DNA from: Terribacillus sp. FSL K6-0262
GTDB lineage: Bacteria > Bacillota > Bacilli > Bacillales > Amphibacillaceae
Assembly (NCBI RefSeq): GCF_037977385.1
Contig: NZ_CP150277.1
Span: 496,001 to 560,000 of the forward strand
Direction: 5' to 3'
DNA: 64,000 bases
Every line of letters starts with the position of its first letter. Positions within the stretch are counted from its first letter, which is position 1. A program made the position numbers and the translations under genes. The notes below the pieces were generated by a model. That model saw only the letters and a program-made list of their open reading frames with translations. It was not told the origin of the DNA and ran no database searches. Positions 2,887 through 17,826 of the stretch are shown piece after piece.

Positions 2887-2925
2887 TTTGCCGCCTTCTT
2901 TCTCTACTAGATTTTTCTGGAAACC

Positions 2926-2943
2926 ATGTGATATACATCACAA
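2926..2943. promoter_or_regulatory. Rex-type operator upstream of cydA
   Basis: Read on the minus strand, the 18 bases are TTGTGATGTATATCACAT, an inverted repeat that matches the Rex consensus TTGTGA-N6-TCACAA at all but the last base. It lies 40-57 bases before the cydA start and just downstream of a TATACT box (2955-2960, minus strand), so a bound protein would block transcription. Rex is the redox sensor that represses cyd genes in B. subtilis and staphylococci. The same 16-bp core (TGTGA-N6-TCACA) would also suit an FNR/CRP-type protein, which is the main alternative. A second palindrome, TTTGTTAACAAA, lies at 3022-3033. Confidence 0.6.
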
Positions 2944-3243
2944 TGTCCTGTTATAGTATACTCCCGCTTATCTGTATCGGAATGTGAAATGTTGAACAAA
3001 TTGTGGCGTAATAGTCACAGCTTTGTTAACAAACAAAAATAATTATTAAGAGAGGAATTTTTAAAGATATTACTTCTTCAAATAGATAATCTTAGAAATT
3101 TAATAAATAAGGAAGAACTAACTAAAAATTTTATTAATCATACATCGTTATCAATTAGTATTTTATTGTAAGATAAAATACCATATACAGGAAACGCAAC
3201 TATATTAATGTTTACAATGGCTGTTAATTATAATGATATTCGT

Positions 3244-3294
3244 AAAAAAACTAAAAGCCTATTGCCAAATAACTCTTTGGCAATAGGCTTTTAT
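3244..3294 (-). terminator. Rho-independent terminator of the YfmQ-like gene
   Basis: A 17-bp perfect stem (3253-3269 with 3276-3292) with a six-base loop is followed on the minus strand by a T-rich tail including seven consecutive T at 3244-3250. It closes the gene ending at 3323. The remaining 3000-3240 region is AT-rich with no supported gene. Confidence 0.8.
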
Positions 3295-3322
3295 ATCATG
3301 ATACACATGTTATATTTTTTTA

Positions 3323-3730
3323 CTAACTTGCTATCTCTAGTAATTGAGCAGACCGTATACTGTAGGCAATTTCTTTCTTACCTTGTTTCTTGTACACATT
3401 AATATAATCTGAAGATACGTACAGGCTGTATTCGGTAAACCTTTTTCCTTCAGTTACGGAAATAACCAAGGGCTCTCCATTTTTCTCAGGTGCAAAATAA
3501 TACTTCTCAAGGTAATTAGCATCATTAAAATATTGTATAATTTCATCTTTTCTTCCGCCAATAAATTGTACATCACCATATTTCACTTTACAGTTCTCCG
3601 GTGTTATTTGAGGATGTATCTTATATTTATTTAAAATTTTCTCTACGACTGAACTAGGTAGGGAAGCTGGAATAATCTTTATTAAACTAAACACAATTAA
3701 TATTGCTATAAAAACCCATGTCACTTTCAT
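3323..3730 (-). CDS. Small membrane-anchored protein, YfmQ-like
   Basis: The 135-residue product starts MKVTWVFIAILIVFSLIK, a single N-terminal membrane helix. A soluble domain follows, with the segments FNDANYLEKYYF, GEPLVISVTEGKRF and VYKKQGKKEIAYSIRSAQL. This arrangement resembles the uncharacterised YfmQ family of Bacillus as I remember it, but I could not align it. A GGAG ribosome binding site lies upstream of the ATG. The gene stands alone between cydA and the marR-type gene and has its own terminator. No catalytic motif is visible and no function is proposed. Confidence 0.6.
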   Translation of the reverse strand: MKVTWVFIAILIVFSLIKIIPASLPSSVVEKILNKYKIHPQITPENCKVKYGDVQFIGGRKDEIIQYFNDANYLEKYYFAPEKNGEPLVISVTEGKRFTEYSLYVSSDYINVYKKQGKKEIAYSIRSAQLLEIAS

Positions 3731-3906
3731 CTACTCCTATTTTTAATATTATTTAAAGTTCTATTCTAAGATAATAACCAACTTAGAATAGAACTTTATC
3801 TTCTCACTGCTATTATGTTAGTTATGATAAAAGGTTATGTCAACTACTTCTAAATGTAGTATATGGCTGTATTATGAACATTTTTAAAAACTAGACGCTA
3901 TTCTAG

Positions 3907-4344
3907 TCATTCAGCAAGAATTTCGTTCATCCTGATTAAAAGGTCCCCGAATATATCAATTTCCTCATCTGACCAACTCTTTAACATTTCTTGATATCGA
4001 CTACTCCGCTTCTTTTTGTCTTCCGTTAATTTTGTTATTCCTAAATCTGTGATATGAAATAAGCTACCTCTCTTGTCATTCGGATCCTGTAATCGACTAA
4101 TTAAGCCCTTAGCTTCCGCGGAAGTAGCTTGACGCGATAAGGTTGAAGTATCCAACTTGAAGAATTCCGCCAAATCCTTCAAACGTGCCGGGCCACGTGC
4201 CTCAAGTTCTCTGAGCAGAAGATATATGGCTCGGTCCAAGTCTCCTATCTTACTGCCCGAGCTATCTTTATATACAGCTCTTCTGACTAATGTGGTCATT
4301 TCATACTCAATACGCTCAATTTTGTTACTTTCTTTGAATGGCAT
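3907..4344 (-). CDS. MarR-family transcriptional regulator
   Basis: The 145-residue product (start chosen at MPFKESNK, ten bases after a GAGGAGG site; an upstream TTG is less likely) has the winged-helix layout of MarR proteins. The recognition region ARLKDLAEFFKLDTSTLSRQ is followed by AEAKGLISRLQDPNDKRGS, the canonical wing with its DxR motif, and a C-terminal dimerisation helix. It is transcribed divergently from the lrgAB-type pair. The shared intergenic region has a 36-bp palindrome overlapping the lrgAB promoter, so it most likely represses lrgAB and itself. The inducing signal cannot be told from the sequence. Confidence 0.9.
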   Translation of the reverse strand: MPFKESNKIERIEYEMTTLVRRAVYKDSSGSKIGDLDRAIYLLLRELEARGPARLKDLAEFFKLDTSTLSRQATSAEAKGLISRLQDPNDKRGSLFHITDLGITKLTEDKKKRSSRYQEMLKSWSDEEIDIFGDLLIRMNEILAE

Positions 4345-4370
4345 TTCTGGTTCTCCTCCTCTTGACAAGA

Positions 4371-4424
4371 TTGACAGATTAACTTTTCGTTGTATAATAC
4401 AAGTATATAGTTGTACTATACAAC
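4371..4424 (+). promoter_or_regulatory. lrgAB-type promoter with overlapping MarR operator palindrome
   Basis: TTGACA at 4371-4376 and TATAAT at 4393-4398 are separated by 16 bases and form a consensus SigA promoter facing the LrgA/CidA-like gene. A 36-bp inverted repeat at 4389-4424 (half-sites reading GTTGTATAATAC and its near complement) covers the -10 box and the likely start site. The pairing is imperfect at only a few positions. The position implies repression by steric block, most simply by the divergent MarR protein. Confidence 0.65.
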
Positions 4425-4516
4425 AAAATATTCAAATAATAAAGCGTTTTCCTATTTAGTTTTGAGAGGGGGAAGGCTGTTTTTCTTTGTAAATAAGAGG
4501 ACGGCTTCATTTATTT

Positions 4517-4903
4517 ATGATAGCAATACGTATTATTTTGCAAATTACTATATTATCTGTTTTTTCTATTCTAGGAACTGTACTACACAGTTTGCTTCAT
4601 ATCCCACTTCCCGGAAGTATCATTGGGTTGATTCTATTGCTATTTTGTTTGTCCTACAAAATAGTTCCAGTCAGCATCATCAGTGATGGAGCGGGATTCT
4701 TGTTAGCAATCTTTCCATTATTATTTATACCTGCAATGGTTGGTGTAATGGACTATCCATCCTTTTTCTCCATCCATGGAGCTATCCTTACAATAGTGGT
4801 AGTGTTGAGCAACATCATAACTATCATTTCAGCTGGAATAGTAAGCCAGTTCATGGAAAACAAAATCAATAAAGGGAAGAAGAGAGAATCATGCACCAAA
4901 TAG
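4517..4903 (+). CDS. LrgA/CidA-family holin-like protein
   Basis: The 128-residue membrane protein has four predicted helices and contains the family signature LPGSIIGLILLLFCLSYKIVP (residues 31-51) and the FIPAMVGVMDYPSF segment. Family members are holin-like proteins that act with LrgB/CidB in murein hydrolase control, programmed lysis or pyruvate uptake. Here the gene is followed with a 13-base overlap by the LrgB-like gene and is controlled from the promoter at 4371. Sequence alone does not separate the Lrg from the Cid subfamily. The divergent regulator is of the MarR type rather than LytSR or the LysR-type CidR, which is a different wiring from staphylococci. Confidence 0.88.
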   Translation: MIAIRIILQITILSVFSILGTVLHSLLHIPLPGSIIGLILLLFCLSYKIVPVSIISDGAGFLLAIFPLLFIPAMVGVMDYPSFFSIHGAILTIVVVLSNIITIISAGIVSQFMENKINKGKKRESCTK

Positions 4904-5583
4904 TCTTCGCAATCAGTATAGTTTTTGTTACAGTCGTTATTTATTACATGTGTGTTAAATTATATAAGCGGTATCCCTACCCATTCTTCATCCCGGTCAT
5001 TACAACTTCTGTAGCTTTAATCATTCTGCTAGTTTCTTGTAATATGTCCTATGATGATTATATGATTGGGGGGAAATGGATCAATGCCTTGCTTGGTCCA
5101 GGTGTGGTAGCACTAGCTTATCCTCTCTATAATAATCGGAAGGTTCTTGTGCAAAATATAGCTCCTATCTTAACCGGAGTTTGTATCGGGTCTCTACTCG
5201 GAATGACTAGTGGTATTTTATTTGTCGAAATGCTTGGCGGTAATCATGATCTAGTTCTTTCGGTAATACCTAAATCAATTACGACCCCTGTCGCACTGCA
5301 GCTAACGGATACATTAGGAGGCATACCATCTATGACGGCAATCTTCGTGATGATTGCAGGTATATCTGGAGTTGTCCTTGGTCCGTTGATCCTCAAATTG
5401 GTACGCATCTCTAGCTATGTAGGAAAAGGAATTGCACTGGGCAGTGCTTCACATGCCTTAGGTACTGCAAGAACAATGGAATATGGTGAACCAGCCGTTT
5501 CAATGAGCTCTGTATCGATGACATTAAGTGCGTTGCTAGGCACTGTCTTTGGTCCAATAATTGCATGGGTATTTCAACTTTGA
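4891..5583 (+). CDS. LrgB/CidB-family membrane protein
   Basis: The 230-residue product contains the LrgB signature blocks: PLYNNRKVLVQN (residues 78-89), the GSLLGMTSG segment, PKSITTPVALQL (127-138) and KGIALGSASHALGTARTMEYGE near the C-terminus. It is an integral membrane protein that partners with LrgA/CidA. The gene overlaps the previous one by 13 bases. The operon ends at a bidirectional terminator at 5731-5760. Published work on B. subtilis PftAB shows that such pairs can import pyruvate, so either a transport or a lysis-control role is possible. Confidence 0.9.
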   Translation: MHQIVFAISIVFVTVVIYYMCVKLYKRYPYPFFIPVITTSVALIILLVSCNMSYDDYMIGGKWINALLGPGVVALAYPLYNNRKVLVQNIAPILTGVCIGSLLGMTSGILFVEMLGGNHDLVLSVIPKSITTPVALQLTDTLGGIPSMTAIFVMIAGISGVVLGPLILKLVRISSYVGKGIALGSASHALGTARTMEYGEPAVSMSSVSMTLSALLGTVFGPIIAWVFQL

Positions 5584-5730
5584 CAGGACTCCTTTACCGA
5601 GTTTATCTTTAATTATTAAACCGGATGGTGTGAATACTTGCACCATTCGGTATTTATTCAATAAATTTAATGAGATATAGCTACATTTCTTCAAACCTAT
5701 AACTACTGCAAATATGTGTTTATTCACGTA

Positions 5731-5760
5731 AAAAAACCGGCCAAAATAGCCGGTTTTTAT
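5731..5760. terminator. Bidirectional terminator between lrgB and ythB
   Basis: AAAAAACCGGC, a six-base loop and GCCGGTTTTTAT form a stem with A and T runs on both sides. It ends the lrgAB-type transcript on the plus strand and the ythAB transcript on the minus strand. Confidence 0.8.
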
Positions 5761-5844
5761 TTTCTTCCTTTATAGACTTATATTTGGTTACCTCTACTGT
5801 CTATTCAAAAACTACAATAATTTATTCCAAACGCTCAAGGCTTA

Positions 5845-6858
5845 TCATTTCTTACCTTTAACATACTCCGCATCGAACAGGAACATCCGCATCACAAGGA
5901 TCAAGGAAGGAATTAGCATGAGCAAGCCTCCAGCAAAAGCAATCAACAAAGCTGCTGCTGATGCTGGTAATGTGGCATCTACCGTAATCTCAATCTCATT
6001 GTAAAGCAAATATGGCATATGACCAATTCCATACCCTAAGAGAGCGAAAAAAAACTGCAGCATGACACAGATAAAAGATAGGCCATATTTCCTTTCTTTA
6101 TATACAAAATATATTCCAATGAGAAAGAACAATACAGACAGCCCGAACATCCACCAAAGATCCAGCATATTATTATAATGCTCCGGATTTTGTCTGCTGA
6201 TAAAGATGAATGCTGTCAGACTTGCAATAATCTGCGGCGCTGCCCAGAAAAGCGCATAAGACCGGAGCAATCTACGCGCCTGATCATCCCCTGCTTTATT
6301 AGCATAATACGTCAAAAAGTTAGCACTAATGTAGAGTACAGATACAACTGCTAAAAATACAACTGCCCATGAAAATGGATTTGTCAGCAACTCCTTGTAA
6401 CGCAAGTAGACGCTGCCGTTTTCATGACGTAAAAATCCTCCCTCAGATATCGTCAAACCAGTCGAGATTGCAGCTGGAATAAATAGGCCGCTAGCTCCAT
6501 ATAGGAATGTATATAGTTTACTTTTTCTTGATCCATAATTCTCAAAGGCGTAAAAAGAACCGCGTATACCAATCAATAATAAAATTATTGTTCCAGGTAT
6601 CAGCATGGCTGTCCCATAGTAATATCCGGCATCTGGAAAGAAGAAGGCTAGACCATAGAAGAAGAAAATGAAAAATACATTCGTTATCTCCCACACGGGA
6701 GATAGGTATCTGGCAATCAGGCGATTAAGAATATGATCTTTTTTTGTCTGCATTGCATAATAGGCGAAGAAACCGGCTCCAAAGTCAATTGACGCAATAA
6801 TTAAGTAAGCAAACAGGAAGAACCATAGTGCTGATAACCCTATTATTTCGTAGTTCAT
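5845..6858 (-). CDS. ythB: Second cytochrome bd oxidase subunit II (YthB-like)
   Basis: The 337-residue membrane protein is a divergent CydB homologue that starts MNYEIIGLSALWFFLFAYLIIASIDFG. The IDFGAGFFAYY and LSPVWEITNVFFIFF segments replace the FDFGVG and GPYWDANEVW motifs of canonical CydB. This is the pattern of B. subtilis YthB, subunit II of the second bd-type menaquinol oxidase. The ATG overlaps the end of ythA by four bases. The Asn in the WDANEVW region aligns with WEITNVF, so the fold is conserved although identity to the neighbouring cydB is low. This indicates an ancient paralogue and not a recent duplication. Confidence 0.85.
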   Translation of the reverse strand: MNYEIIGLSALWFFLFAYLIIASIDFGAGFFAYYAMQTKKDHILNRLIARYLSPVWEITNVFFIFFFYGLAFFFPDAGYYYGTAMLIPGTIILLLIGIRGSFYAFENYGSRKSKLYTFLYGASGLFIPAAISTGLTISEGGFLRHENGSVYLRYKELLTNPFSWAVVFLAVVSVLYISANFLTYYANKAGDDQARRLLRSYALFWAAPQIIASLTAFIFISRQNPEHYNNMLDLWWMFGLSVLFFLIGIYFVYKERKYGLSFICVMLQFFFALLGYGIGHMPYLLYNEIEITVDATLPASAAALLIAFAGGLLMLIPSLILVMRMFLFDAEYVKGKK

Positions 6859-8210
6859 TTTTGATCACCTCCAAACAGCGTATCAGGAAAGCGCATCTCC
6901 CACTCTTTTTGAATCGGATTCTTTTTGTATAGGCGATTTAACACTAGTGCATAAAAAGTACCTAATAACACATACAAAATCAAAAATGCTGCGAATGCAT
7001 AATGAACATATGGTGAAGTGACTGCTCCTTCGGCTACACGCATATACCCTCGCATTATCCATGGCTGTCGTCCAACTTCCGCATAAATCCAGCCAAATTC
7101 AAGAGCTAGAACTGCGAGAGGCGCATTAAGTACAATTGCCCTCAATAGCCACTTATTATATTGGTCTCGTTTTTTCCAAAACATAAAAATAATAAAAAGC
7201 ATACTGATCATAATACCGAAAGCCCCAAAACTAACCATTAAATCAAACATATAGTGTATCCATAAAGGCGGTATCAGATCTGCATCCACTTTATCCAAAC
7301 CTATAACCTCACTATTGAAATCGCCAAAAGCCAAGAAGCTAAGCAATTTGGGCAGATGAATAGCCCCTTTTATTTCATTATTCTCTGTCAGCTTGCCAAA
7401 GAGGATTAAGTCTGCTCCTTTTTCACTCTCAAAATGCCACTCAGCAGCGGCAAGCTTTTCAGGCTGATAATTCGCTAAAAATTTAGCAGAAGTATCACCA
7501 GCTATTGCTGTGAAGATGGAAAAAATCAGCGTTATAATCATAGTCAGCTTAAGTGCTTTCTTATAATACTTATTGTTTCCGTATTTCAAGATAAAGAATG
7601 CCGTAATCGCGGCAAGAATAGCTCCTGACATCATGTATGCGGATGTGAGCACATGGAATACTTTTGAAGGAGTTGCCGGATTCAACATTGCCATTAGTGG
7701 CTGCACCGACATAATCGTTCGTCCTTCAAGCGTAAAACCTTGCGGTGTATTCATAAAAGCATTTACACTCGTAATGAACACCGCGCTCATCCCCCCGCCA
7801 ATTACAACCGGAAGAGATAGATACCAATGTGTATACCTTCCCTTGAATCTATCCCATGTATAGATATAGGCTCCTAAAAAGATCGCCTCAAAGAAGAAAG
7901 CAAAGGTTTCCAGAAATAACGGAAGTCCAATAACATGACCGGCAATTTGCATGAAGGTAGGCCATAACAGAAATAACTGAAGGCCGATTGCTGTTCCAGT
8001 TACTACACCGACAGCAACTGTTATAACGTATCCTCTTGTCCATCTTCTTGCTAATAATACATAATTACGATCACGCTTCCGGATTCCTACGTATTCTGCT
8101 GCACAGATCAATAAAGGAACACCGGCACCGATTGTGGCAAAAATAATATGAAAGCAAAGCGTCAAAGAGGTAAGCATCCGCGCTAAAATAACACTGTCAT
8201 AAGCGTACAA
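6855..8210 (-). CDS. ythA: Second cytochrome bd oxidase subunit I (YthA-like)
   Basis: The 451-residue product is a CydA homologue with the N-terminal heme ligand His in MLTSLTLCFHIIFATIG and the signature EVGRQPWIMRGYM near residue 385. The start is TTG, 11 bases after an AGGAGG site; no better ATG is visible. The Q loop is short. In B. subtilis, ythAB encodes a second bd oxidase separate from cydAB, with a role in late growth. Both systems sit 3 kb apart here, which is not the B. subtilis arrangement. A large inverted repeat lies directly against the ribosome binding site. Confidence 0.88.
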   Translation of the reverse strand: MYAYDSVILARMLTSLTLCFHIIFATIGAGVPLLICAAEYVGIRKRDRNYVLLARRWTRGYVITVAVGVVTGTAIGLQLFLLWPTFMQIAGHVIGLPLFLETFAFFFEAIFLGAYIYTWDRFKGRYTHWYLSLPVVIGGGMSAVFITSVNAFMNTPQGFTLEGRTIMSVQPLMAMLNPATPSKVFHVLTSAYMMSGAILAAITAFFILKYGNNKYYKKALKLTMIITLIFSIFTAIAGDTSAKFLANYQPEKLAAAEWHFESEKGADLILFGKLTENNEIKGAIHLPKLLSFLAFGDFNSEVIGLDKVDADLIPPLWIHYMFDLMVSFGAFGIMISMLFIIFMFWKKRDQYNKWLLRAIVLNAPLAVLALEFGWIYAEVGRQPWIMRGYMRVAEGAVTSPYVHYAFAAFLILYVLLGTFYALVLNRLYKKNPIQKEWEMRFPDTLFGGDQK

Positions 8211-8883: not shown

Positions 8884-10500
8884 TTATGGTGATACAATTC
8901 CTTTGGTCTCTTCACTTAAAGAATTCATATAATCCTCAATCTCAACGAATGGCGTTAATCTGTAATCAACCTGAATACCTGTTCTTTCAACATTGTAAGA
9001 AACCCAATTTAAAACTAACCTCAAGAATGCTCTCTTTTCTCTTGAAGAGTATTCATTGATATCCCTGGAAAACCGCATTACCTTTTCTTCAAAGAAACAT
9101 TCAGCAGGTAGTTTTTGTAACTTAAGGGATACCATTTCAGCTTCCTTTTTCTCCAACTCTATCTTATCAATTGCAGAAGAAATGATACGAGTATACCTTC
9201 CTTCCATTACACTTAACTTGTATCTTAGTTTCTGCAAATCCTCATTAATTTTCTCTATTCTATTTTTAAGATTCTTCGCCCATTGAGTTATGGTTTGATT
9301 ATAAACATCCTTGTAATTATATAAAGATCCATTCCATCTTGAAGACAGATTGGCAATAACCTTAGACTCAAGATCTTCTTTATCAACATTATATTTACAG
9401 TTGACACAACTATAATAGTTGTACTGCTTTTTTGATCCCGATGGCGTCGCATTCTTGGTTGCGAGGGTCCTACCGCATTTCATACACTTAACTATCCCCT
9501 TTAAGATAAAGGGACTATTAAAACGGCCTCTTAAAGACTTATCTTTCCTGAACGATTGTGTAATCTCCCATACTTCCTCACTAATCAATGCGGGATGGTG
9601 ATTCTGGAAAAGGCTAATCTGTTCTAACTGCTTCCTTTTACTATTATGGTACCCAGTACGTGCATTCCAAGTCATATCACCAATATACCAGCGATTATTG
9701 AGGATATAGCGTACACTGGAATCCTCCCATTTTTCGTTATTGTTTGGGGAGAGAACAGGAGATTTGCTTAGAAGAAGAGCAATATCCTTATCGCTATATC
9801 CGTTACTATATAAATGAAAGATTAGTACCACTACTTTAGCTTCATCATTTGGTACTAGTTCCTCTCTTGTCCCGCTGCTGTAACTATAACCAAAGGGTGC
9901 CTTTGACCCTGGTCGCTTTGGTTTCTCTCTTTCTAATATAGATTTGATATATGATTTCGCTGTATTCGATTTTTTCTCTGATTCACTATGAGCTCTTACA
10001 ACTTTATATTGTGTTATAGGATCGTTAGGATCCCATTCCGTTTCATCTAAGCTTGAAAAGAATTTAAACCCGTTACGGAATGATTTTATCGTTACATATA
10101 TATCATTAATATCAGTAATAGAGCGGGATATTCTTGACTCATCATAAAAAAATAAAGCTTGAGCTGTCTCATTTGCCTCTATAAACTTTATCATTTCAGT
10201 AGCACTCTTACGGTTATAAACCATTGTATGATACGCTGAAGTAGCTTTATCAATAAATAACACTAAAGAGAGATAGCCTTCTTTTTTCGCCTTACTCACT
10301 ATATATCTTAGTTGGATTTCTAAAGAATGCTTATCAGATTGTTTTTGATCAGACCACCGTATATAAGCAATCCCCAAAGGATATAAATTTGTCTTGTCCT
10401 CTGAAGTTACTATATTAAGATCTGGCAAATCTATAGCTATATCTGTGTGAAGGTTAATTCCATTATAGAGATAGTTATAATTAAAGAATAATTGCTGCAT
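8884..10500 (-). CDS. Large serine recombinase B
   Basis: The start was set at MQQLFFNYNY because AGGAGGAG lies eight bases upstream; the product is 538 residues. A roughly 40-residue N-terminal extension precedes a resolvase domain whose nucleophile is Ser50 in AYIRWSDQ. A Recombinase domain follows, with the typical APFGYSYSSG segment near residue 205. A zinc ribbon (CMKC and CVNC) spans residues of about 355-390, and a coiled coil follows. Enzymes of this class cut and rejoin att sites. The gene overlaps the upstream recombinase gene by 20 bases, so the two proteins are made together, as with the CcrA/CcrB pair of SCC elements (466 and 538 residues here). I do not claim that it is CcrB. 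Confidence 0.85.
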   Translation of the reverse strand: MQQLFFNYNYLYNGINLHTDIAIDLPDLNIVTSEDKTNLYPLGIAYIRWSDQKQSDKHSLEIQLRYIVSKAKKEGYLSLVLFIDKATSAYHTMVYNRKSATEMIKFIEANETAQALFFYDESRISRSITDINDIYVTIKSFRNGFKFFSSLDETEWDPNDPITQYKVVRAHSESEKKSNTAKSYIKSILEREKPKRPGSKAPFGYSYSSGTREELVPNDEAKVVVLIFHLYSNGYSDKDIALLLSKSPVLSPNNNEKWEDSSVRYILNNRWYIGDMTWNARTGYHNSKRKQLEQISLFQNHHPALISEEVWEITQSFRKDKSLRGRFNSPFILKGIVKCMKCGRTLATKNATPSGSKKQYNYYSCVNCKYNVDKEDLESKVIANLSSRWNGSLYNYKDVYNQTITQWAKNLKNRIEKINEDLQKLRYKLSVMEGRYTRIISSAIDKIELEKKEAEMVSLKLQKLPAECFFEEKVMRFSRDINEYSSREKRAFLRLVLNWVSYNVERTGIQVDYRLTPFVEIEDYMNSLSEETKGIVSP

Positions 10501-11881
10501 TGTCAATCTCCTCCTGTACATAGTCTCCAAAATTACACAACATCCTTATGAAATCTTCACTTACTTCTATAGATGAAATGAAAAACTGAATTAGAATTTT
10601 CGTATTAGTAACTTGTAATCTTTTCTTCAGATGATCCCTTACAATTTCAGCTAAATCAGATAACTCCATCTTTGCTTCTTTTAATCGAATGAGTTGCTGA
10701 TCGATTTCATCAATCTGGTTCATTAAATCTTTTTCAGAGAGTAATAGATTATCACTTATTTCATCTCTCATAATATTCCTGACTATCTTGTTGTGGAGTT
10801 TATCTACTTCTATTCTTTTGTTATTTTTTAACGTGTTCAATTGCTTTTGTAATTCTACTATTACTGCATTACATTCTTTGTACACTTCTTTTAGATTTAA
10901 ATTTGATACATAAGAGCGCAGCTTTACCTCTACTTCTTCTAATAGTGCTTGACGTGTTATTGTAATTTCTTTATGTTTTCTCCTGCAGTAGAATACTGCA
11001 GGATTGGACAATGTTCTTCTTCTACTCATACTTCTTTTGCAAATCGCGCATTCTGGAATAATTATATTTTCTTTTGAATATTCCTCGAGTGCGTTATAAA
11101 TTATGTCTCTGTTTTTCTCTAGTTTAAACTGTACCTTATTAAAATCAGCCACTGACACTAATTCTTCTACGTGATCCAATCTTTGTAACTTACCGTTAAT
11201 ATCCGCACAACCAGCGAAAAAAGGGTTTCTTAAATATTTCATAATTCTCAAGTAATCTTTACTTCTTAACTCGGCGGCGAAATTTTCTATTACTTTGAGT
11301 ACCTCTAATCCATCGCTCGACTTTATAAAAGACTCGTAAAGTCTTCTTAGAAAATCACTGTCTTTATTGGCAATAAATTTAACCTTATCTTTGGTGGTTA
11401 TTACTCTCTCAAAACCATAAACTTGTGTCGGGCGAATTTTTCTTGCGTCACGTGAACGATTTGCAATATTGCGGCCATCCATTTGAGTAAAGATGCCGTG
11501 CATGCCTTCGGAGTCTACATCAACAGTATAAGGACTTTGTTCAACTGCAGTAAAAACTACTTCGACTTTGTGCTTGTTTAGAAGCTTTATAATATTCATA
11601 TATTCATAAAAATTTCTTGCCAATCTGTCTCTCGAATAGACTACTACTATTGAAATATTACCTGCTTCAACCTGTGCAAGTAATTTCTTTAGTTCAGGTC
11701 TTTTCTTAATTTCTACCTTATTCGCAGAAACAGCAAAATCATTAAAGAATTCAATATTCGTTAGATTGTTAGAAGCTACATAGTTCTTAGCTAATTTTAG
11801 TTGCATCGCCACACTTTGACCTCTGCTACTAACTCTAGTGTAAATAGCTACTTTTCCCTTTCGAAATGCATTATGTATCAT
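10481..11881 (-). CDS. Large serine recombinase A
   Basis: The 466-residue product starts MIHNAFRKGKVAIYTRVSSRGQS with the resolvase nucleophile at Ser18. VVVYSRDRLARN (residues 80-91) is the conserved Arg-containing block of the catalytic site. The zinc ribbon is irregular: CAIC is present but the second pair reads YCRRKH, so one ligand may be His. A long coiled-coil region fills the C-terminal third. The region after the catalytic core lacks the usual GxxPfGY loop and reads RPTQVYGFERV instead, so the protein may need recombinase B as partner. It overlaps the 62-residue gene upstream by 11 bases and recombinase B downstream by 20 bases. Confidence 0.82.
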   Translation of the reverse strand: MIHNAFRKGKVAIYTRVSSRGQSVAMQLKLAKNYVASNNLTNIEFFNDFAVSANKVEIKKRPELKKLLAQVEAGNISIVVVYSRDRLARNFYEYMNIIKLLNKHKVEVVFTAVEQSPYTVDVDSEGMHGIFTQMDGRNIANRSRDARKIRPTQVYGFERVITTKDKVKFIANKDSDFLRRLYESFIKSSDGLEVLKVIENFAAELRSKDYLRIMKYLRNPFFAGCADINGKLQRLDHVEELVSVADFNKVQFKLEKNRDIIYNALEEYSKENIIIPECAICKRSMSRRRTLSNPAVFYCRRKHKEITITRQALLEEVEVKLRSYVSNLNLKEVYKECNAVIVELQKQLNTLKNNKRIEVDKLHNKIVRNIMRDEISDNLLLSEKDLMNQIDEIDQQLIRLKEAKMELSDLAEIVRDHLKKRLQVTNTKILIQFFISSIEVSEDFIRMLCNFGDYVQEEIDNAAIIL

Positions 11882-12059
11882 TTTGATTTTCTCCTTTAGA
11901 AATTTGATAAAAATCTGGTGACATTAACTCCGCCTGGAGATCTAAGTCGATATCCAATTCTTTAATAATTGTTCGATATATAATCATTCTGATGAAATGA
12001 AATGATTCTTTTGTTAGTTCTTCGTTTGTTGTTACTTTTAGTATCTTTATTTCAGACAT
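11871..12059 (-). CDS. Small acidic protein of the recombinase operon
   Basis: The 62-residue product begins MSEIKILKVTTNEELTKESF. The start was chosen because GAGAGGAG lies eight bases upstream; a longer frame beginning at 12101 has no such site. The protein is predicted to be helical and ends in an acidic, polar tail. I do not recognise the family. Its position, translationally coupled to two serine recombinases, suggests a recombination directionality factor or accessory subunit, but this is inferred from context only. Confidence 0.65.
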   Translation of the reverse strand: MSEIKILKVTTNEELTKESFHFIRMIIYRTIIKELDIDLDLQAELMSPDFYQISKGENQNDT

Positions 12060-12121
12060 AAATCTTCTCCTCTCTAATACTTTTAAGACAAGTATTGGCA
12101 TAGAGGGGGATTTATAAACTA

Positions 12122-12244
12122 TTAATCTATATTAAGCTCCAATTGTATTTCTATAGTTTCTGCTTTATTTATCGGCACTACTATTTCGTATGTATTTTCT
12201 TTTTTCAGTAAGTTTTCCTCAATAAGATTAATTAAGCTTTTCAT
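12122..12244 (-). CDS. Predicted 40-residue protein
   Basis: The minus strand reads ATG at 12242-12244 preceded by GGGGGAT and ends with TAA at 12122-12124. The product MKSLINLIEENLLKKENTYE and its acidic tail form an amphipathic helix followed by a strand-rich end (IVVPINKAETIEIQLELNID). The start lies inside the previous gene, so the two are coupled. No family is recognised. It is counted as a gene because of the ribosome binding site and the tight overlap. Confidence 0.5.
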   Translation of the reverse strand: MKSLINLIEENLLKKENTYEIVVPINKAETIEIQLELNID

Positions 12245-12362
12245 TTTTATCCCCCAGAATATCAACCATAAAATCTTGAATGACCTTTTTATTGACGCCA
12301 GCCTCTTCTGATACCTTTAAGATTGCTTCAATCCATTCTTTGCTCACATTTAGATCACTCAA
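12228..12362 (-). CDS. SinI-like antirepressor-type small protein
   Basis: The frame starts with TTG at 12360-12362, eight bases after AAGGGGAG, and gives 44 residues. The segment SKEWIEAILKVSEEAGVNKK, continuing VIQDFM, matches the SinI domain pattern (D/S-x-EW-x-x-L-I-x-x-A-x-x-x-G-x-x-x-x-x-I-x-x-F). In B. subtilis that helix-turn-helix hairpin binds SinR and prevents DNA binding. No XRE/SinR-type partner is encoded near it, so it may act on a host SinR-like regulator, or it may be a stand-alone dimerisation module for the recombinase operon it heads. The match is by eye and by pattern only. Confidence 0.55.
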   Translation of the reverse strand: MSDLNVSKEWIEAILKVSEEAGVNKKVIQDFMVDILGDKNEKLN

Positions 12363-12431
12363 TTGATATCTCCCCTTAATAAAACTAGATAATAAGTTAT
12401 ATTGCGATATTTTTTGATTTTCAAGGGGTAA

Positions 12432-12458
12432 ATAAAAAAATATCGCCTTAGGCGATAT
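12432..12458 (-). terminator. Terminator built around the stop codon of the 208-residue gene
   Basis: On the minus strand, ATATCGCC, the TAA stop codon as the three-base loop, and GGCGATAT are followed by seven T. The gene and its terminator therefore share sequence. Confidence 0.8.
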
Positions 12459-13074
12459 AATCTTCGTAAAAACTGCATAGCGCCAGTACTTCAGCGCCTG
12501 CTAATTTTTTTTTGTATTTTTTAAACTCTAAGTCTCGGTCAGTACTGAATCGGGGTGAATTATTACATATCCTCTTTAATTTATAAGCAGCTCGACGGTT
12601 GTGCTCCTCTATATCACAGCTTATAAAACGAAATTGTCCGCACTTTTTTTGGTGGTATTCAACAAAATATCGAATTAAGTTAGGCTTACTAACAAATCCC
12701 CAGTTTAAGAATTGTTTTTGAGTAGGATTCTGGTTAGCAAAAGTAACGTCGACTTTCTTTAGTTTTCCACACTTTGTTCTAAGTAAGCGGCGGCCACTAG
12801 AATCAACCACTTCAAGAAAAAAATCTGTATAAGATATTTTATTTCCTAAAATTTGTTGACCTGGTCCTTCTGTATACACCTGTGAGAAAGAGACATTCTC
12901 TTTAAGATTAATCAAATAGTTACTCCAGTCTATAAAATAGAATGTCTTCCTAGCAGGGAATGAATTACTGTCTAGTGTTTCTCTAACAGACACCCAAACA
13001 ATTAAATCTGTACTTACAAAATAACCCTGAGAATTTATTATAAACTCTCGCTTTCTTTCTTTACTCCATTCCAT
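12448..13074 (-). CDS. Unknown 208-residue island protein
   Basis: The start was set at MEWSKERKREF, since AGGGGGAA lies seven bases upstream; the frame extends further to 13119 without such a site. The product is soluble and basic, with no signal peptide or membrane helix. It has several strand-rich segments (SYTDFFLEVVDSSGRRLLRT) and a Lys/Arg-rich C-terminus (RRAAYKLKRICNN). I considered a TnsA-like nuclease fold because of the strand and basic pattern, but the required acidic and QxK catalytic residues are not clear. It is transcribed as a separate unit upstream of the small-gene/recombinase operon and away from the repeat array. Confidence 0.65.
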   Translation of the reverse strand: MEWSKERKREFIINSQGYFVSTDLIVWVSVRETLDSNSFPARKTFYFIDWSNYLINLKENVSFSQVYTEGPGQQILGNKISYTDFFLEVVDSSGRRLLRTKCGKLKKVDVTFANQNPTQKQFLNWGFVSKPNLIRYFVEYHQKKCGQFRFISCDIEEHNRRAAYKLKRICNNSPRFSTDRDLEFKKYKKKLAGAEVLALCSFYEDYIA

Positions 13075-13173
13075 TCTTACATTCCCCCTGTTCTTAGAAC
13101 AGTTATTTTCCAAGAACAAAAGATTTATACCTAACTTTCACCCTCCATATTATTTTCCAAGCTTTTTGAAAAA

Positions 13174-13394
13174 GTTTTTTCCACTTCTTATTTTGGTGGT
13201 TCTATCATTATAAGCAGAACTTTGCTAAAAAGTTTTTTCCACTTCTTATTTCGATGGTTCTATCATTATAAGCAGAGCTTTGCTAAAAAAGTTTTTTCCA
13301 CTTCTTATTTCGATAGTTCTATCATTAGAAGCAGAGCTTTAATAAAAAAGTTTTTTCCACTTCTTATTTTGATGGTTCTATCATTATAAGCAGA
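13174..13394. repeat. Four tandem 59-bp repeats
   Basis: Units begin at 13174, 13232, 13291 and 13350 (spacing 58, 59, 59); the last is cut short. Each contains GTTTTTTCCACTTCTTATTT, a GG or GA-TGGTT segment, and CTATCATTATAAGCAGAG, then an imperfect palindrome AGCAGAGCTTTGCT at the junction. Differences between units are single bases. The array sits between the divergent 208-residue gene and the excisionase-integrase genes. This is a position for iterons, operators or arm-type recombinase sites. No unique spacers lie between units, so it is not a CRISPR array. Confidence 0.9.
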
Positions 13395-13463
13395 AGAATA
13401 ATTCGATTTTTATTAGAAGAAAATTTTTACAATCAACTAATTAGTACAAAAAGGAGTATATAA

Positions 13464-13649
13464 ATGAACAAGAATTACGAAGATTACCCTATGATACTCT
13501 CCGCTGAAGATGTCGCGGACATACTAAAAGTCTCAAAATCAACAGCCTATGCTCTTATGAACGCTCCCGGTTTTCCTCTAATCAAGCTCAATGGTACAAA
13601 TAGAGTAAAAAGGGTCTTAAAAGATAAATTCATTGAATATATCAGTTGA
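13464..13649 (+). CDS. Excisionase-like helix-turn-helix protein
   Basis: The 61-residue product contains LSAEDVADILKVSKSTAYAL, the MerR-like winged helix of the HTH_17/excisionase family, followed by a short wing FPLIKLNGTNRVKR. An AAGGAG site lies seven bases before the ATG. Its place just upstream of a tyrosine integrase is typical of Xis in ICE and phage modules. It probably binds near the att sites or the 59-bp repeats to steer excision, and may also regulate transcription. Confidence 0.75.
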   Translation: MNKNYEDYPMILSAEDVADILKVSKSTAYALMNAPGFPLIKLNGTNRVKRVLKDKFIEYIS

Positions 13650-13704
13650 ATATTGTCAAACCTGCAATTATTACTCTATTAATCTATTAAGGTGGTCAAT
13701 ATTT

Positions 13705-14847
13705 ATGAAAGGTCATATTTATAAACGCGGCAAGACATATACGTACGTTATTGACGTTGGGAGAGATCCTGAAACCGGACAAAGAAAGCAAAAATCCAAG
13801 GGTGGCTTTCAGAAAAAGAAAGAGGCAGAACAAGCTTTACGAAAGGCTTTAGATGTATTAGAAAAAGAAGACTTTCACTCACCATCAAAAGAGAACTTTT
13901 CAATTTTTATGCAAAAGTGGCTCAATACACATTACAGATTTCGGGTTAGTGAAACAACTATAAGCATAAGCACTTATACGATTAACAAACACCTTCTTAA
14001 CAATAATCCATTTCTAAACAAACAAATTTCTAAAATAACCACTAGGGATATAGACAATTTTTACGGATATAAACTCAATGAAGGTCTTTCAACAAGTACA
14101 GTTCGTAAGCTGCATAACTTACTGAATAAGGCCCTAGGACAAGCACAAAAATGGAATATGATTATTTCAAATCCTGTAGCAAGTGCTGATCCTCCTTCTA
14201 TAAAAAAGGCAGAATTCCTGATATGGAATTCTGCTGACATCAATAAGTTCTTAACAACCATAAGAAATGAGCGGCTATATATTTTATTCTTTTTGGCAAT
14301 TCATACCGGAATGCGTAAAGGTGAACTCTTAGCCCTTAGATGGGCTGATATTGATTTAGAAAGAAGAGTTATAAATGTAAGACGCTCACTGTCCAATATT
14401 CCTGGTAAGGGATACTTACACAAAGAATTAAAGACTAAAAAATCCAAAAGAAATATAACCATCAGTGAAGACGTTGCAGAAACTCTTCTTCAACATAAAA
14501 AAGAACAAGAGAAAATTATTGAGCTATTTGGAAATGCTTATGTAGAAAATGACCTTATAATATGCACTAATGAAGGTAAAGAGCAAGATTTGCGTAATGT
14601 AACAAGGGTGATGAAAAGATTAATCCAAGAAGCCGGAGTGTCCAAAATTAGATTTCACGATTTGAGACATACCCACGCCTCTATTCTTCTATCTGAAGGT
14701 ATAGACGTTGTAGAGGTTTCTAGTCGATTAGGCCACACAAATCCGAGAACGACATTGGAGACTTATGCGCACTTAGTCCCAAATAAGAATAACAATGCTG
14801 CTGACCGTTTTAGTAAGGCATTGAGCAAAGATCTATTTATGGAATGA
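13705..14847 (+). CDS. Tyrosine integrase (site-specific recombinase)
   Basis: The start was set at MKGHIYKRGKTYTYVIDVGR because AAGGTGG lies nine bases upstream; a longer frame begins at 13633. The 380-residue protein has an N-terminal arm-binding AP2-like domain (to residue 55), a SAM-like core-binding domain (about 60-160) and the catalytic domain. Visible catalytic residues are Arg204 (TGMRKGE), His318 and Arg321 (HDLRHTHAS), His344 (LGHTNPRTT) and Tyr354 (ETYAHL), with a Lys near 244. It is the Tn916/phage class that often inserts at tRNA 3' ends, which fits the tRNA-Val gene 2.9 kb downstream. Confidence 0.93.
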   Translation: MKGHIYKRGKTYTYVIDVGRDPETGQRKQKSKGGFQKKKEAEQALRKALDVLEKEDFHSPSKENFSIFMQKWLNTHYRFRVSETTISISTYTINKHLLNNNPFLNKQISKITTRDIDNFYGYKLNEGLSTSTVRKLHNLLNKALGQAQKWNMIISNPVASADPPSIKKAEFLIWNSADINKFLTTIRNERLYILFFLAIHTGMRKGELLALRWADIDLERRVINVRRSLSNIPGKGYLHKELKTKKSKRNITISEDVAETLLQHKKEQEKIIELFGNAYVENDLIICTNEGKEQDLRNVTRVMKRLIQEAGVSKIRFHDLRHTHASILLSEGIDVVEVSSRLGHTNPRTTLETYAHLVPNKNNNAADRFSKALSKDLFME

Positions 14848-14945
14848 AGGAAAAAAATTCACAAAACACCTTCTCTTTTATTATTAAAAGCTATATCCTA
14901 ATACCAAAGATAGGAAAAAAGACATAATTAGAGAGAAGGAACACT

Positions 14946-16382
14946 GTGAAGAAGTTCGATTTGAATATCGAAAAGGTTTTAGAACATTGGTCTATAGCCC
15001 ACGCCTTAAGAGAGATTATTGCAAATGCACTTGATGAATCTATATTAAGTAACACTAAGCAGCCGCTCATACAAAAGGACAACAATGGCTTGTGGCATAT
15101 TAAAGATTATGGCCGCGGTCTAAGATATGAGCATCTCACTCAAAACGAGAATACAGAAAAAACAGAGAATCCAAATAAGGTTATTGGAAAGTTCGGCGTA
15201 GGTTTGAAAGATGCACTAGCTACTTTTGATCGGCGGCAGATTGGGGTCTTAATTCACTCCAAGTACAGCGATATTACTATTGAAAAGGCTCCAAAAGATG
15301 ACTTTGAAGATGTTGTAACATTGCACGCTATTGTAAAAGAACCGACTAATCCTGAAATGGTTGGTACAGAATTTATCTTCTCGGGTCTGCAAGATAGCGA
15401 TATAAATGATGCAAAGGACTTCTTTCTACTTTACTCTGGTGACAAACTTATTGAAGAAACTAAATATGGTTCTATATATGTTAGTCGTAAAAAGAGCGCC
15501 AGAATATATGTAAATGGAATATGTGTAGCAGAAGAGGAGAACTTCTTGTTCAGCTACAATATTACATCTCCTACAAAGAAACTCCTACAATCTCTAAACA
15601 GAGAAAGAAGTAATGTTGGCAGAAGCGCTTATACTGACAGAGTTAAATCAATATTGCTTGAGTGTACAAGCAACGAATCTGCTGAACTACTAGTTGATGA
15701 CTTACAGAATATGCAAACGGGTGTAACGCGCGATGAATTGCAATGGATAGACGTGCAGCTTCACGCCTGTAAAATACTTAGTAGTAAGGAAAAGGTATTG
15801 TTCTTGACCGCGTATGACTTGATGGATGGCGGCAAATATATAGATTACGCTAAAGAAGAAGATATTCGGATAGTAACGGTTCCGGACAATCTTGCGCTAA
15901 GGCTCCAATCCAGTAAAGACTTAAATGGCAAGGAATTCCGTAATTTAGATGTTTTCGCCGCTGAATGGAATCAGAATTTTGAGTTTAAGCTAGTCGATTA
16001 TAAAAAGCTTAGTAATAAGGAAAAAGAAGTGTTCGATCATAAAGACACTATTTTAAACTGGTTCCCACATCAAAGAAAAGCAGTAAAAACGATTGTTATT
16101 TCTGAGACAATGCGGCCGGATAATTACAGCGGAGACGATGCACTGGGTTTATGGGAACCTGCTAATAAACGAATAATCATTAAACGTAGTCAACTTTCGA
16201 ATATCCAAGCATTTACTGGAACATTTTTGCACGAGCTTGTTCACGCATTTACTGGAACAGATGATGTGACACTTGAATTTGAGCAGGAACTAACCAGAAT
16301 GCTAGGTATAATAAGTCAGATGACCCTTAATACAAACAAGAAAAAAGAGTCATTCATCAGACGTTATTTTAGAAAACAATAA
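14946..16382 (+). CDS. GHKL ATPase fused to a HExxH metallopeptidase-like domain
   Basis: The GTG start follows a GAGAAGGA site; the product is 478 residues. The N-terminal 115 residues carry all three Bergerat-fold motifs: the N box Glu23-Asn27 with Asp30 (ALREIIANALDE), the G1 box Asp54-x-Gly56-x-Gly58 (KDYGRGL) and the G2 box (IGKFGVGLKDAL, 80-91). The last 60 residues hold HELVH at 429-433 and a glutamate-rich segment (TLEFEQEL) that could give the third zinc ligand, as in zincins. The middle 250 residues are of unknown fold. The coupling resembles Hsp90/MORC-type ATP clamps linked to a protease. It forms an apparent operon with the RES gene 23 bases downstream. Function is inferred: ATP-driven sensor or protease in a defence pair. 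Confidence 0.8.
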   Translation: MKKFDLNIEKVLEHWSIAHALREIIANALDESILSNTKQPLIQKDNNGLWHIKDYGRGLRYEHLTQNENTEKTENPNKVIGKFGVGLKDALATFDRRQIGVLIHSKYSDITIEKAPKDDFEDVVTLHAIVKEPTNPEMVGTEFIFSGLQDSDINDAKDFFLLYSGDKLIEETKYGSIYVSRKKSARIYVNGICVAEEENFLFSYNITSPTKKLLQSLNRERSNVGRSAYTDRVKSILLECTSNESAELLVDDLQNMQTGVTRDELQWIDVQLHACKILSSKEKVLFLTAYDLMDGGKYIDYAKEEDIRIVTVPDNLALRLQSSKDLNGKEFRNLDVFAAEWNQNFEFKLVDYKKLSNKEKEVFDHKDTILNWFPHQRKAVKTIVISETMRPDNYSGDDALGLWEPANKRIIIKRSQLSNIQAFTGTFLHELVHAFTGTDDVTLEFEQELTRMLGIISQMTLNTNKKKESFIRRYFRKQ

Positions 16383-16405
16383 AAAATTAAAGGGGTTCAC
16401 AATGT

Positions 16406-17509
16406 ATGAATTGCTGTATCAATTGTATTAATAACAAACAGATTTCATATGAAATAATTAAATTAAATCTAATTGGAGATTGCTCTTTTTGTGAAGGTAA
16501 AGATTTAAATATATGTGATATAAAATCAAGTATTTTCGCTTATCCTAAACGTTTAATATTACGGTTAAATAAAAGTGATAGTGGATTTAGAATACAAAGG
16601 TTCCTAACAAAGCAAATTAACCTATTCAATCCAGAGTTACCTCAAGAAGTTATAGATAATTTAATCATACATATGACAGGTGGTTTAAGGAACCTTGAAG
16701 ACCTCCAAGGGAATTTTGCAGTTCCATACCATCTTTCATCCCTTGTTGGTGAATGGAAAAATTTCAAAGATGCCGTCAAATATTCCAATAGATTTGGTTT
16801 TGGTATTTCTGAGAGGCTATCGGAAGCTCTAAGATATATACTTATAGAAAATAAATATACACTAACTAAAAATGAGCACTATTTCAGAGCAAGATTGGGA
16901 TACGATAAAATAAAAGTAGAACAACGACACGGATACCCAGGTGAGCAAGTAGTAACAATAAAAGATATGGAGGTAGCCTTTTCAGGAGATAAAATTATGG
17001 CTCCTCCTTCACATCTTGTTAATGAGGGCAGACTTAATCCTCGGGGGATTTCATACTTGTATGTTGCAGAAAATGATATAACTGCTATTGCTGAAGTTCG
17101 TCCGCACAAACACAAAAAAGTATCAGTCGCAAATGTTAAAACTAATGATACTCTTGAAGTTTCTTGTTTCGACAATAGAACATTCTTTGAAAAACCTACT
17201 CTAAGTGAACAATTAGATTTTTATCTTCTCACCAATTTCCTAAATAGTGAATTTTCAAAGCCAATTGATGAAGACACAAGATATTTAGATTATCTTCCTA
17301 CTCAATATGTATCTGAACTGGCAAAGAATCTTAAAATAGAAGGTATAAGGTATAGCAGTTCATTAGAAGATGGTTTTAACATCTGTATTTTCAACACAGA
17401 AAAAGTGGAATTTGTAGAGTCCGATATAGCCAAGATTTCTTCTGTAAAGCTTGAAATAGAAAGATCGAACACTTATGAGTACAAAGTTATCAATGGTGGT
17501 CAACTTTAA
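16406..17509 (+). CDS. RES-domain protein with Cys-rich N-terminus
   Basis: The ATG at 16406 follows AGGGG at 16391-16395; the product is 367 residues. Residues 1-37 hold CxxC pairs (C4/C7 and C26/C29), which could bind zinc. A helical region follows to about 155. The RES core covers about 158-320: FRARLG (R161), NEGRLNPRGISYLYVAEND (203-221), ITAIAEVRP with Glu230, and a late IRYSSS segment. These are the Arg, Glu and Ser marks of the family. RES toxins studied elsewhere, such as MbcT and other Xre-RES pairs, destroy NAD+. No Xre antitoxin is present; the GHKL-peptidase gene sits in that place. The gene ends at a strong terminator before the att region. Confidence 0.8.
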   Translation: MNCCINCINNKQISYEIIKLNLIGDCSFCEGKDLNICDIKSSIFAYPKRLILRLNKSDSGFRIQRFLTKQINLFNPELPQEVIDNLIIHMTGGLRNLEDLQGNFAVPYHLSSLVGEWKNFKDAVKYSNRFGFGISERLSEALRYILIENKYTLTKNEHYFRARLGYDKIKVEQRHGYPGEQVVTIKDMEVAFSGDKIMAPPSHLVNEGRLNPRGISYLYVAENDITAIAEVRPHKHKKVSVANVKTNDTLEVSCFDNRTFFEKPTLSEQLDFYLLTNFLNSEFSKPIDEDTRYLDYLPTQYVSELAKNLKIEGIRYSSSLEDGFNICIFNTEKVEFVESDIAKISSVKLEIERSNTYEYKVINGGQL

Positions 17510-17701: not shown

Positions 17702-17747
17702 AAAAAAGGCTGGAACCCTTGCCTACCAAGGGTTCCAGCCTTTTTTC
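17702..17747. terminator. Bidirectional terminator next to tRNA-Val
   Basis: AAAAAAGGCTGGAACCCTTG and its complement form a 20-base perfect stem with a five-base loop and T runs on both strands. It lies directly downstream of the tRNA-Val gene on the minus strand. Confidence 0.85.
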
Positions 17748-17753
17748 AATTAG

Positions 17754-17826
17754 TGATTCCGACTGGACTTGAACCAGCGACCCCTACCCTGTCAAGGTAG
17801 TGCTCTCCCAGCTGAGCTACGGAATC
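17754..17826 (-). tRNA. tRNA-Val (GAC)
   Basis: The minus strand reads a 73-base cloverleaf: acceptor GATTCCG pairing with CGGAATC, D arm TAGCTCAGCTGGGA, anticodon stem CTACC/GGTAG around the loop TTGACAG (anticodon GAC), and T arm GGTTCAAGTCC. CCA is not encoded. Its 3' end faces the island, as expected for a tyrosine integrase target. Confidence 0.93.

Follow-up and report, generated by a model that had tools for sequence, protein, structure and literature searches.

A GHKL-type ATPase-peptidase gene and a RES-domain gene carried by an integrase island at tRNA-Val in Terribacillus

Several described systems resemble a gene pair of Terribacillus sp. FSL K6-0262, in which a GHKL/Hsp90-like ATPase with a C-terminal zinc-peptidase motif (hereafter ATPase-peptidase) is followed by a RES-domain protein. 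The RES toxins of RES-Xre type II systems (MbcT, ParT, NatT and P. putida RES) share the RES domain and its fold with the second protein. In contrast to them, this RES protein has 367 amino acids, a cysteine ribbon and an N-terminal helical part, and has no Xre gene. Proteins that join a HEPN/RES-NTD1 domain to a RES domain, some with an N-terminal zinc ribbon, were described by Anantharaman et al. 2013 (PMC3710099). Their architecture, as given there, corresponds to that predicted for the Terribacillus RES protein, although the Pfam match of the latter for this part (PF18870) lies below the cut-off.

For the first protein, the GHKL-S5 ATPases of the MORC/paraMORC radiation, described in restriction-modification (R-M) systems by Iyer et al. 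2008 (PMC2292703), are similar in their N-terminal GHKL motifs, S5-like middle domain, lateral mobility and, in some cases, R-M neighbours. On the other hand, the Terribacillus protein has a C-terminal HExxH end, and its family is often found without an evident operon partner; the words 'peptidase', 'protease' and 'HExxH' are absent from the main text of that paper. VcSduA is a GHKL ATPase fused to a Shedu nuclease, for which anti-phage activity was reported (PMC12137116). Both proteins have a GHKL domain and a C-terminal hydrolase, proposed in the VcSduA paper to be under GHKL control, but the hydrolase is a nuclease in VcSduA and a peptidase motif in the Terribacillus protein. In addition, gop-beta-cII of satellite P4 (PMC9122126) is a proven anti-phage layout. 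Among the matches listed from the titles and abstract beginnings of the open-licence PMC literature, there was nothing on the ATPase-peptidase or on a GHKL-RES pair, nor was a function given for the former.

The integrase island at tRNA-Val

The whole stretch of 64,000 nucleotides that was analysed is called the window. As listed in Table 1, the ATPase-peptidase gene and the RES gene occupy the slot between a tyrosine integrase gene and the tRNA-Val attachment site, in agreement with the first-pass annotation, which had placed them as cargo between an integrase and its likely tRNA target. The two genes are on the same strand with a gap of 23 bases, a ribosome-binding-site-like AAAGGGG precedes the RES gene, and none of the four terminator-like sites predicted in the region (2.9 expected by chance) lies between them; given that expectation, the stem-loop past the RES gene is weak evidence by itself. 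The spacing, the shared strand and the lack of a listed terminator suit a single operon, and the two genes may well be co-transcribed; this counts against their independence. Their codon usage points the other way. The GC3 value is 0.344 for the ATPase-peptidase gene and 0.217 for the RES gene, which counts for their independence; the integrase gene has 0.29, and the three genes to the right of the tRNA have 0.50-0.64.

Table 1. Coordinates of the features of the island in the window
Feature	Position	Strand	Remarks
Direct repeats (n = 4)	13169..13414		Spaced at 58-59 nt; precede the integrase gene; 83-100% identical to the reference copy
Tyrosine integrase	13633..14847	+	Domains Arm-DNA-bind_4, Phage_int_SAM_3, Phage_integrase
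ATPase-peptidase gene	14946..16382	+	GHKL/Hsp90-like, C-terminal zinc-peptidase motif; 478 aa; GTG start
HELVH...E putative zinc site	16230..16283	+	Residues 429-446
RES-domain gene	16406..17509	+	367 aa; ATG start
Terminator-like stem-loop	17546..17569	+	36 bases past the end of the RES gene
Attachment-site core	17742..17796		3′ end of tRNA-Val and flank; repeated beyond the window
tRNA-Val (gac)	17753..17826	-	Integration target

Partial copies, 87-94% identical, of a 54-base sequence that includes the 3′ end of tRNA-Val are present at genome positions 478,994, 482,808 and 484,031. These copies lie 30-35 kb to the left of the tRNA, beyond the window; in the window itself, a search with a 22-base core that allowed 3 mismatches found no second copy of the attachment core. 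When tRNA-Val and its right-hand gene were used as a query, 10 of 10 genomes of the genus were matched, including the own one. The regions of five other genomes were compared. L145, L146 and L147 have a partial second copy of tRNA-Val on the same side, the second copy of L144 is a complete tRNA-Val gene, and no second copy was seen in L148. Furthermore, L146 and L147 have an integrase about 40% identical (matched piecewise) at about 130 bases from tRNA-Val. Thus, the second tRNA copies and the integrases adjoining the tRNA in the genus indicate that tRNA-Val is a stacked integration hotspot. The four direct repeats upstream of the integrase are possible arm-type binding sites.

Other features of the window were noted as well. 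To the left of the integrase, two large serine recombinase genes overlap each other on the minus strand (8884-11881) and form a second recombination module, and an ORF of 223 aa (12448-13119) has no match in Pfam, PADLOC, NCBIfam or PHROGs (E<=1). By eye, the translations at 483-8210 show two pairs of cytochrome-bd-like genes, which have the outer tRNA copies on one side and the tRNA on the other. No R-M gene was found among the four proteins scanned at 8884-14847, which are the two serine recombinases, one unknown protein and the integrase. The leader of the ATPase-peptidase gene (14848-14960) forms a strong hairpin that pairs its ribosome-binding site (z = -5.0 with dinucleotide shuffles and -3.2 with simple shuffles). 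Such a hairpin was rejected as a feature of the family, since ten other ATPase-peptidase leaders gave z values from -1.7 to +2.3.

The ATPase-peptidase and the RES protein

The first-pass annotation had read the first gene as a GHKL-type ATP-binding domain fused to a HExxH peptidase-like end, and this reading was borne out. The predicted fold contains an Hsp90/GyrB-type ATPase core, and the GHKL ATP-binding motifs and an S5-type middle domain are present. In the alignment of the family, H429, E430 and H433 are conserved in 117 of 117 sequences and E446 in 116 of 117. The protein therefore has the HExxH motif with a downstream conserved Glu by which gluzincins are recognised, and E446 may be the third zinc ligand. 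No zincin was among the fold matches listed; these matches cover mainly residues 1-340 rather than the peptidase end (residues 345-478), so they give no sign of a new fold. Relatives 42-94% identical, from both bacteria and archaea, keep the catalytic residues, the closest one listed being 94% identical. Two relatives, P0002 (823 aa) and P0047 (772 aa), have two tandem ATPase units and a single peptidase end, which suggests a dimer in which one peptidase suffices. No PADLOC model matched the ATPase-peptidase, the RES protein or the 223-aa ORF (E<=1). A phage origin of the ATPase-peptidase was also considered and rejected, since there was no tblastn match in 50,697 phage records; yet four viral contigs encode an ATPase-peptidase.

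The second gene had been described as a RES-domain protein with CxxC pairs, which agrees with its predicted layout of an N-terminal four-Cys ribbon, a helical middle and a C-terminal RES fold. The predicted model of the RES domain matches MbcT, NatT and ParT. Among the 59-61 relatives in which these positions are occupied, 56-59 keep C4, C7, C26 and C29, which form a putative zinc ribbon. The helical middle is HEPN/RES-NTD1-like (PF18870 with 14.2 bits against a cut-off of 27.4, over 23 residues), and several of the RES relatives listed carry both PF18870 and PF08808. The closest relative listed is 59% identical. From the predicted fold and the residues, the RES protein may consume NAD+. In viral contigs, the scan for RES found none. 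Five RES proteins were compared with PADLOC, and neither the window copy (E<=1) nor those of L115, L118, L121 and L122 (E<=0.1) had a match.

Is the RES protein the toxin of an Xre-RES toxin-antitoxin pair? Between the integrase and the tRNA, the ORFs of at least 80 aa are the ATPase-peptidase gene, the RES gene and, antisense within the latter, an ORF of 98 aa, and no Xre/HTH antitoxin gene was found among them, as the first-pass annotation had also noticed. The NCBIfam ParT model gave 14.3 bits on the window RES protein against a cut-off of 110. The Xre-RES explanation was rejected, since there is no antitoxin gene in this interval and the architecture is different. It was also considered whether either gene is decaying passenger DNA without function. 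Their sporadic distribution and low GC would suit such an origin, but both frames are open, the catalytic residues are intact in both proteins, and these are kept by relatives across the range of identity given above in bacteria and archaea. Loss of function is thus hardly to be expected for either gene.

Neighbours of the two genes in other genomes

The first-pass annotation had proposed a two-gene defence system in which the ATPase-peptidase controls the RES effector. Are the two genes conserved as neighbours? I examined 94 distinct other ATPase-peptidase loci with flanks of up to 3 kb a side. The genome scan, which confirmed 145 loci, supplied 80 of them; 3 more came from genomes of the order, 4 from viral contigs and 7 from plasmids. 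Of the 94, 70 have more than 1.5 kb on both sides, and near-duplicates such as L056/L058 and L081/L082 were kept. A RES gene adjoins the ATPase-peptidase gene in only one of them, L043 from Omnitrophota. There, the gene row consists of an Mrr-like nuclease gene, a short lipoprotein-like gene, the RES gene and the ATPase-peptidase gene. Compared with the window, the order is reversed, with the RES gene upstream and 125 bases apart, and the RES protein is of another RES lineage, with 259 aa and no cysteine ribbon. An Xre pair was rejected for this RES gene as well, since the preceding 97-aa gene matches no Xre family and looks lipoprotein-like by eye. Under random placement, 0.02 and 0.007 RES neighbours are expected, and the probability of one recurrence is 0.007-0.021. 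The RES frequencies used were 11 matches in 145 genomes for the phylum of L043 and, with the own genome counted, 10 in 189 for the own order; mean genome sizes of 1.75 and 3.9 Mb were assumed. Thus, the adjacency in L043 is unlikely to be plain chance, although the clustering of accessory genes is outside that model.

From the RES side, the ATPase-peptidase was found in none of the 16 widely flanked RES loci (L115-L126 and, on plasmids, L131-L134; L123 and L130 represent one plasmid) and in none of the six with short flanks (L009-L012, L110, L111). The wide flanks are mostly at least 4 kb on both sides, and L117, L120 and L125 have 1.3-3.5 kb on one side. In the loci whose surroundings were read, RES genes stand alone, in a defence-like gene row, or behind a pair of genes named sce7726 and sce7725. 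The co-occurrence of the two genes across genomes, which the first-pass annotation had named as a check, gave a similar picture. In 299 genomes of the order, the ATPase-peptidase is present in 4 (E<=1e-20) and the RES protein in 8 (E<=1e-5); the own genome is the only one with both, so the 3 and 7 others do not overlap. In 398 genomes of the phylum, RES is present in 11 (E<=1e-10) and the ATPase-peptidase in 1, with the own genome in both counts. No GHKL-RES fusion was found; 3,693 candidates of a length suited to a fusion gave one RES protein, of 506 aa and without a listed GHKL domain.

These results were weighed against a true two-gene defence module, in which the ATPase-peptidase would sense infection or restrain the RES protein, and would free it by cleavage or remodelling for an NAD+ drain. 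Such a module would account for the 23-base spacing without a listed terminator and for the intact catalytic residues of both proteins, and the adjacency does recur in another phylum, two genes past an Mrr-like nuclease gene, at a frequency that random placement rarely gives. Nevertheless, the partner is missing in 93 of the 94 ATPase-peptidase loci and in all 16 widely flanked RES loci, there is no fusion, the GC3 values differ, and L043 has the reversed order, the longer spacer and a RES protein lacking the ribbon. I therefore regard such a module as unlikely. Of the first-pass interpretation as a whole, the enzyme identities, the missing Xre gene and the island stood, and the conserved pair did not; a lack of conserved adjacency is the outcome which that annotation had itself set as a refutation. 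The neighbour counts cover relatives other than the closest ones listed (94% identical for the ATPase-peptidase and 59% for RES), so the pair could be conserved if it is young.

Both sce7726 and sce7725 are located upstream of the RES gene in 9 of the 16 widely flanked RES loci (L118, L119, L120, L121, L125 and L126, and the plasmid loci L132, L133 and L134), and L131 has a match to sce7725 only. In a further plasmid locus (L123/L130), PLD-like and Shedu SduA genes lie downstream of RES. The sce7726 proteins matched the PADLOC model 'cll' in 2 of 2 tested (9.2e-15 and 1.2e-15), and 1 of 2 tested sce7725 proteins weakly matched 'beta' (0.036); I take these model names to denote components of gop-beta-cII. 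By its sequence matches, the sce7726-sce7725-RES operon resembles a gop-beta-cII layout with a RES gene in it. The likeness to gop-beta-cII of P4 (PMC9122126) is that RES relatives take the third place in the operon and the first gene matches the cII-like model, but the window has neither partner gene.

It is conceivable that the RES gene of the window is a displaced member of such an operon and now works either alone or with the ATPase-peptidase as a substitute for the former partners. The frequency of the operon among RES loci and the matches to 'cll' and 'beta' are consistent with this. However, profiles from six loci detected no sce7725 or sce7726 in the window (E<=1), and the RES proteins compared with PADLOC had no match. 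In the RES tree (38 rows), moreover, the window copy belongs to a starred set of nine rows (100/99) that contains neither L043 nor any sce-linked row, and no sce neighbour is known in this clade, where the surroundings were read for L115 besides the window. In L115, the nearest same-strand gene lies 431 bases upstream of RES and is neither ATPase-peptidase nor sce7725/7726. A displaced origin is very doubtful. The L043 copy has a long branch in this tree; the window and L043 copies share one side of a weak branch (51/73) that separates them from the sce-linked rows, so a shared history of the two is possible.

The ATPase-peptidase gene is frequently found without an evident operon partner, as judged by eye and uncounted. 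An integrase and tRNA-Ala accompany it, without RES, in L015 (1.9 kb) and in L127 (6.5 kb). In L018, again without RES but with no integrase match, a tmRNA is 2.4 kb away; a tRNA scan of 10 loci was positive in 3. The viral contig L093 carries it without RES. On the Salinibacter plasmid pSR56 (L101:7962-9404), a type I R-M locus contains it between its S and R genes, and in an Epsilonproteobacteria MAG (L024:1083-2531) it is bordered by a RAMP gene on one side and by type III R-M genes on the other. These settings without RES, at the integrase and tRNA-Ala, in the viral contig and in the R-M rows, support the independence of the two genes. In four archaeal loci (L020, L022, L025, L040), an SbcC-like ATPase gene is directly upstream and an SbcD-like gene before that, so these partners recur as a set; one SbcC-like ATPase was scanned, and SbcD was assigned by kinship to a gene so annotated. 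A Piwi-domain gene lies two genes away on a Natrinema plasmid, and the ATPase-peptidase gene adjoins dprA on a Euzebya plasmid.

PADLOC matches (E<=1e-10) were counted for proteins of 150-900 aa encoded near the ATPase-peptidase gene (within 3 genes; 142 of 237 near genes) and far from it (at least 5 genes away; 148 of 398 far genes) in genome-scan loci, with the near-duplicate L058 left out. Among the 25 families listed per scan, mad3 had 7 near versus 4 far matches, AriA (PDLC02979) 6 versus 2, and Old reached 5, and individual GajA models up to 5, versus at most 2; mad2 (3 matches) was listed in the far set only. Overall, 195 PADLOC families were matched near and 168 far. The enrichment of defence genes around the ATPase-peptidase is weak, the models overlap, and far genes may share the same islands. 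A role of the ATPase-peptidase in conflict or defence is plausible.

Independent genes or a switch

The single adjacency in 94 loci, its absence from the 16 RES loci, the lack of overlap in the 299 genomes outside the own one and the lack of a fusion suggest that the two genes are independent. I consider it likely that each is an accessory gene complete in itself and mobile on its own, and that both were stacked as cargo in the island at tRNA-Val, where they are co-transcribed by happenstance. Both are probably related to defence. If they are independent, the RES protein would be a one-chain effector of the NAD+-phosphorylase type that needs no Xre partner. Its ribbon and helical N-terminal part may restrain the enzyme, or act as a sensor, until it is triggered; the RES domain would then consume NAD+ and stop the growth of the infected or stressed cell. 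The ATPase-peptidase may be an Hsp90-fold ATP clamp, probably dimeric, that feeds or gates the fused zinc peptidase. It would thus be an ATP-controlled protease, whose substrate is probably foreign or conflict-related.

The recurrence in L043 keeps a weaker form of the pair idea alive. In that form, the Hsp90-type clamp with its zinc peptidase would be an infection sensor controlling the neighbouring RES effector, in a pairing assembled at least twice, in the window and in L043. I regard this as distinctly unlikely.

In an unusual combination, the single chain of the ATPase-peptidase joins an Hsp90-like clamp to a zinc-peptidase motif. Its conservation is strong from archaea to Bacilli, yet its distribution is scattered, as that of a mobile gene would be. 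The RES family occupies at least two genomic settings, solitary and in the sce7726-sce7725-RES operon. If the two genes are independent, the value of the locus rests in each family. If the pair were functional, it would represent a new mode of control for an NAD+-depleting effector, with a chaperone-protease as the switch.
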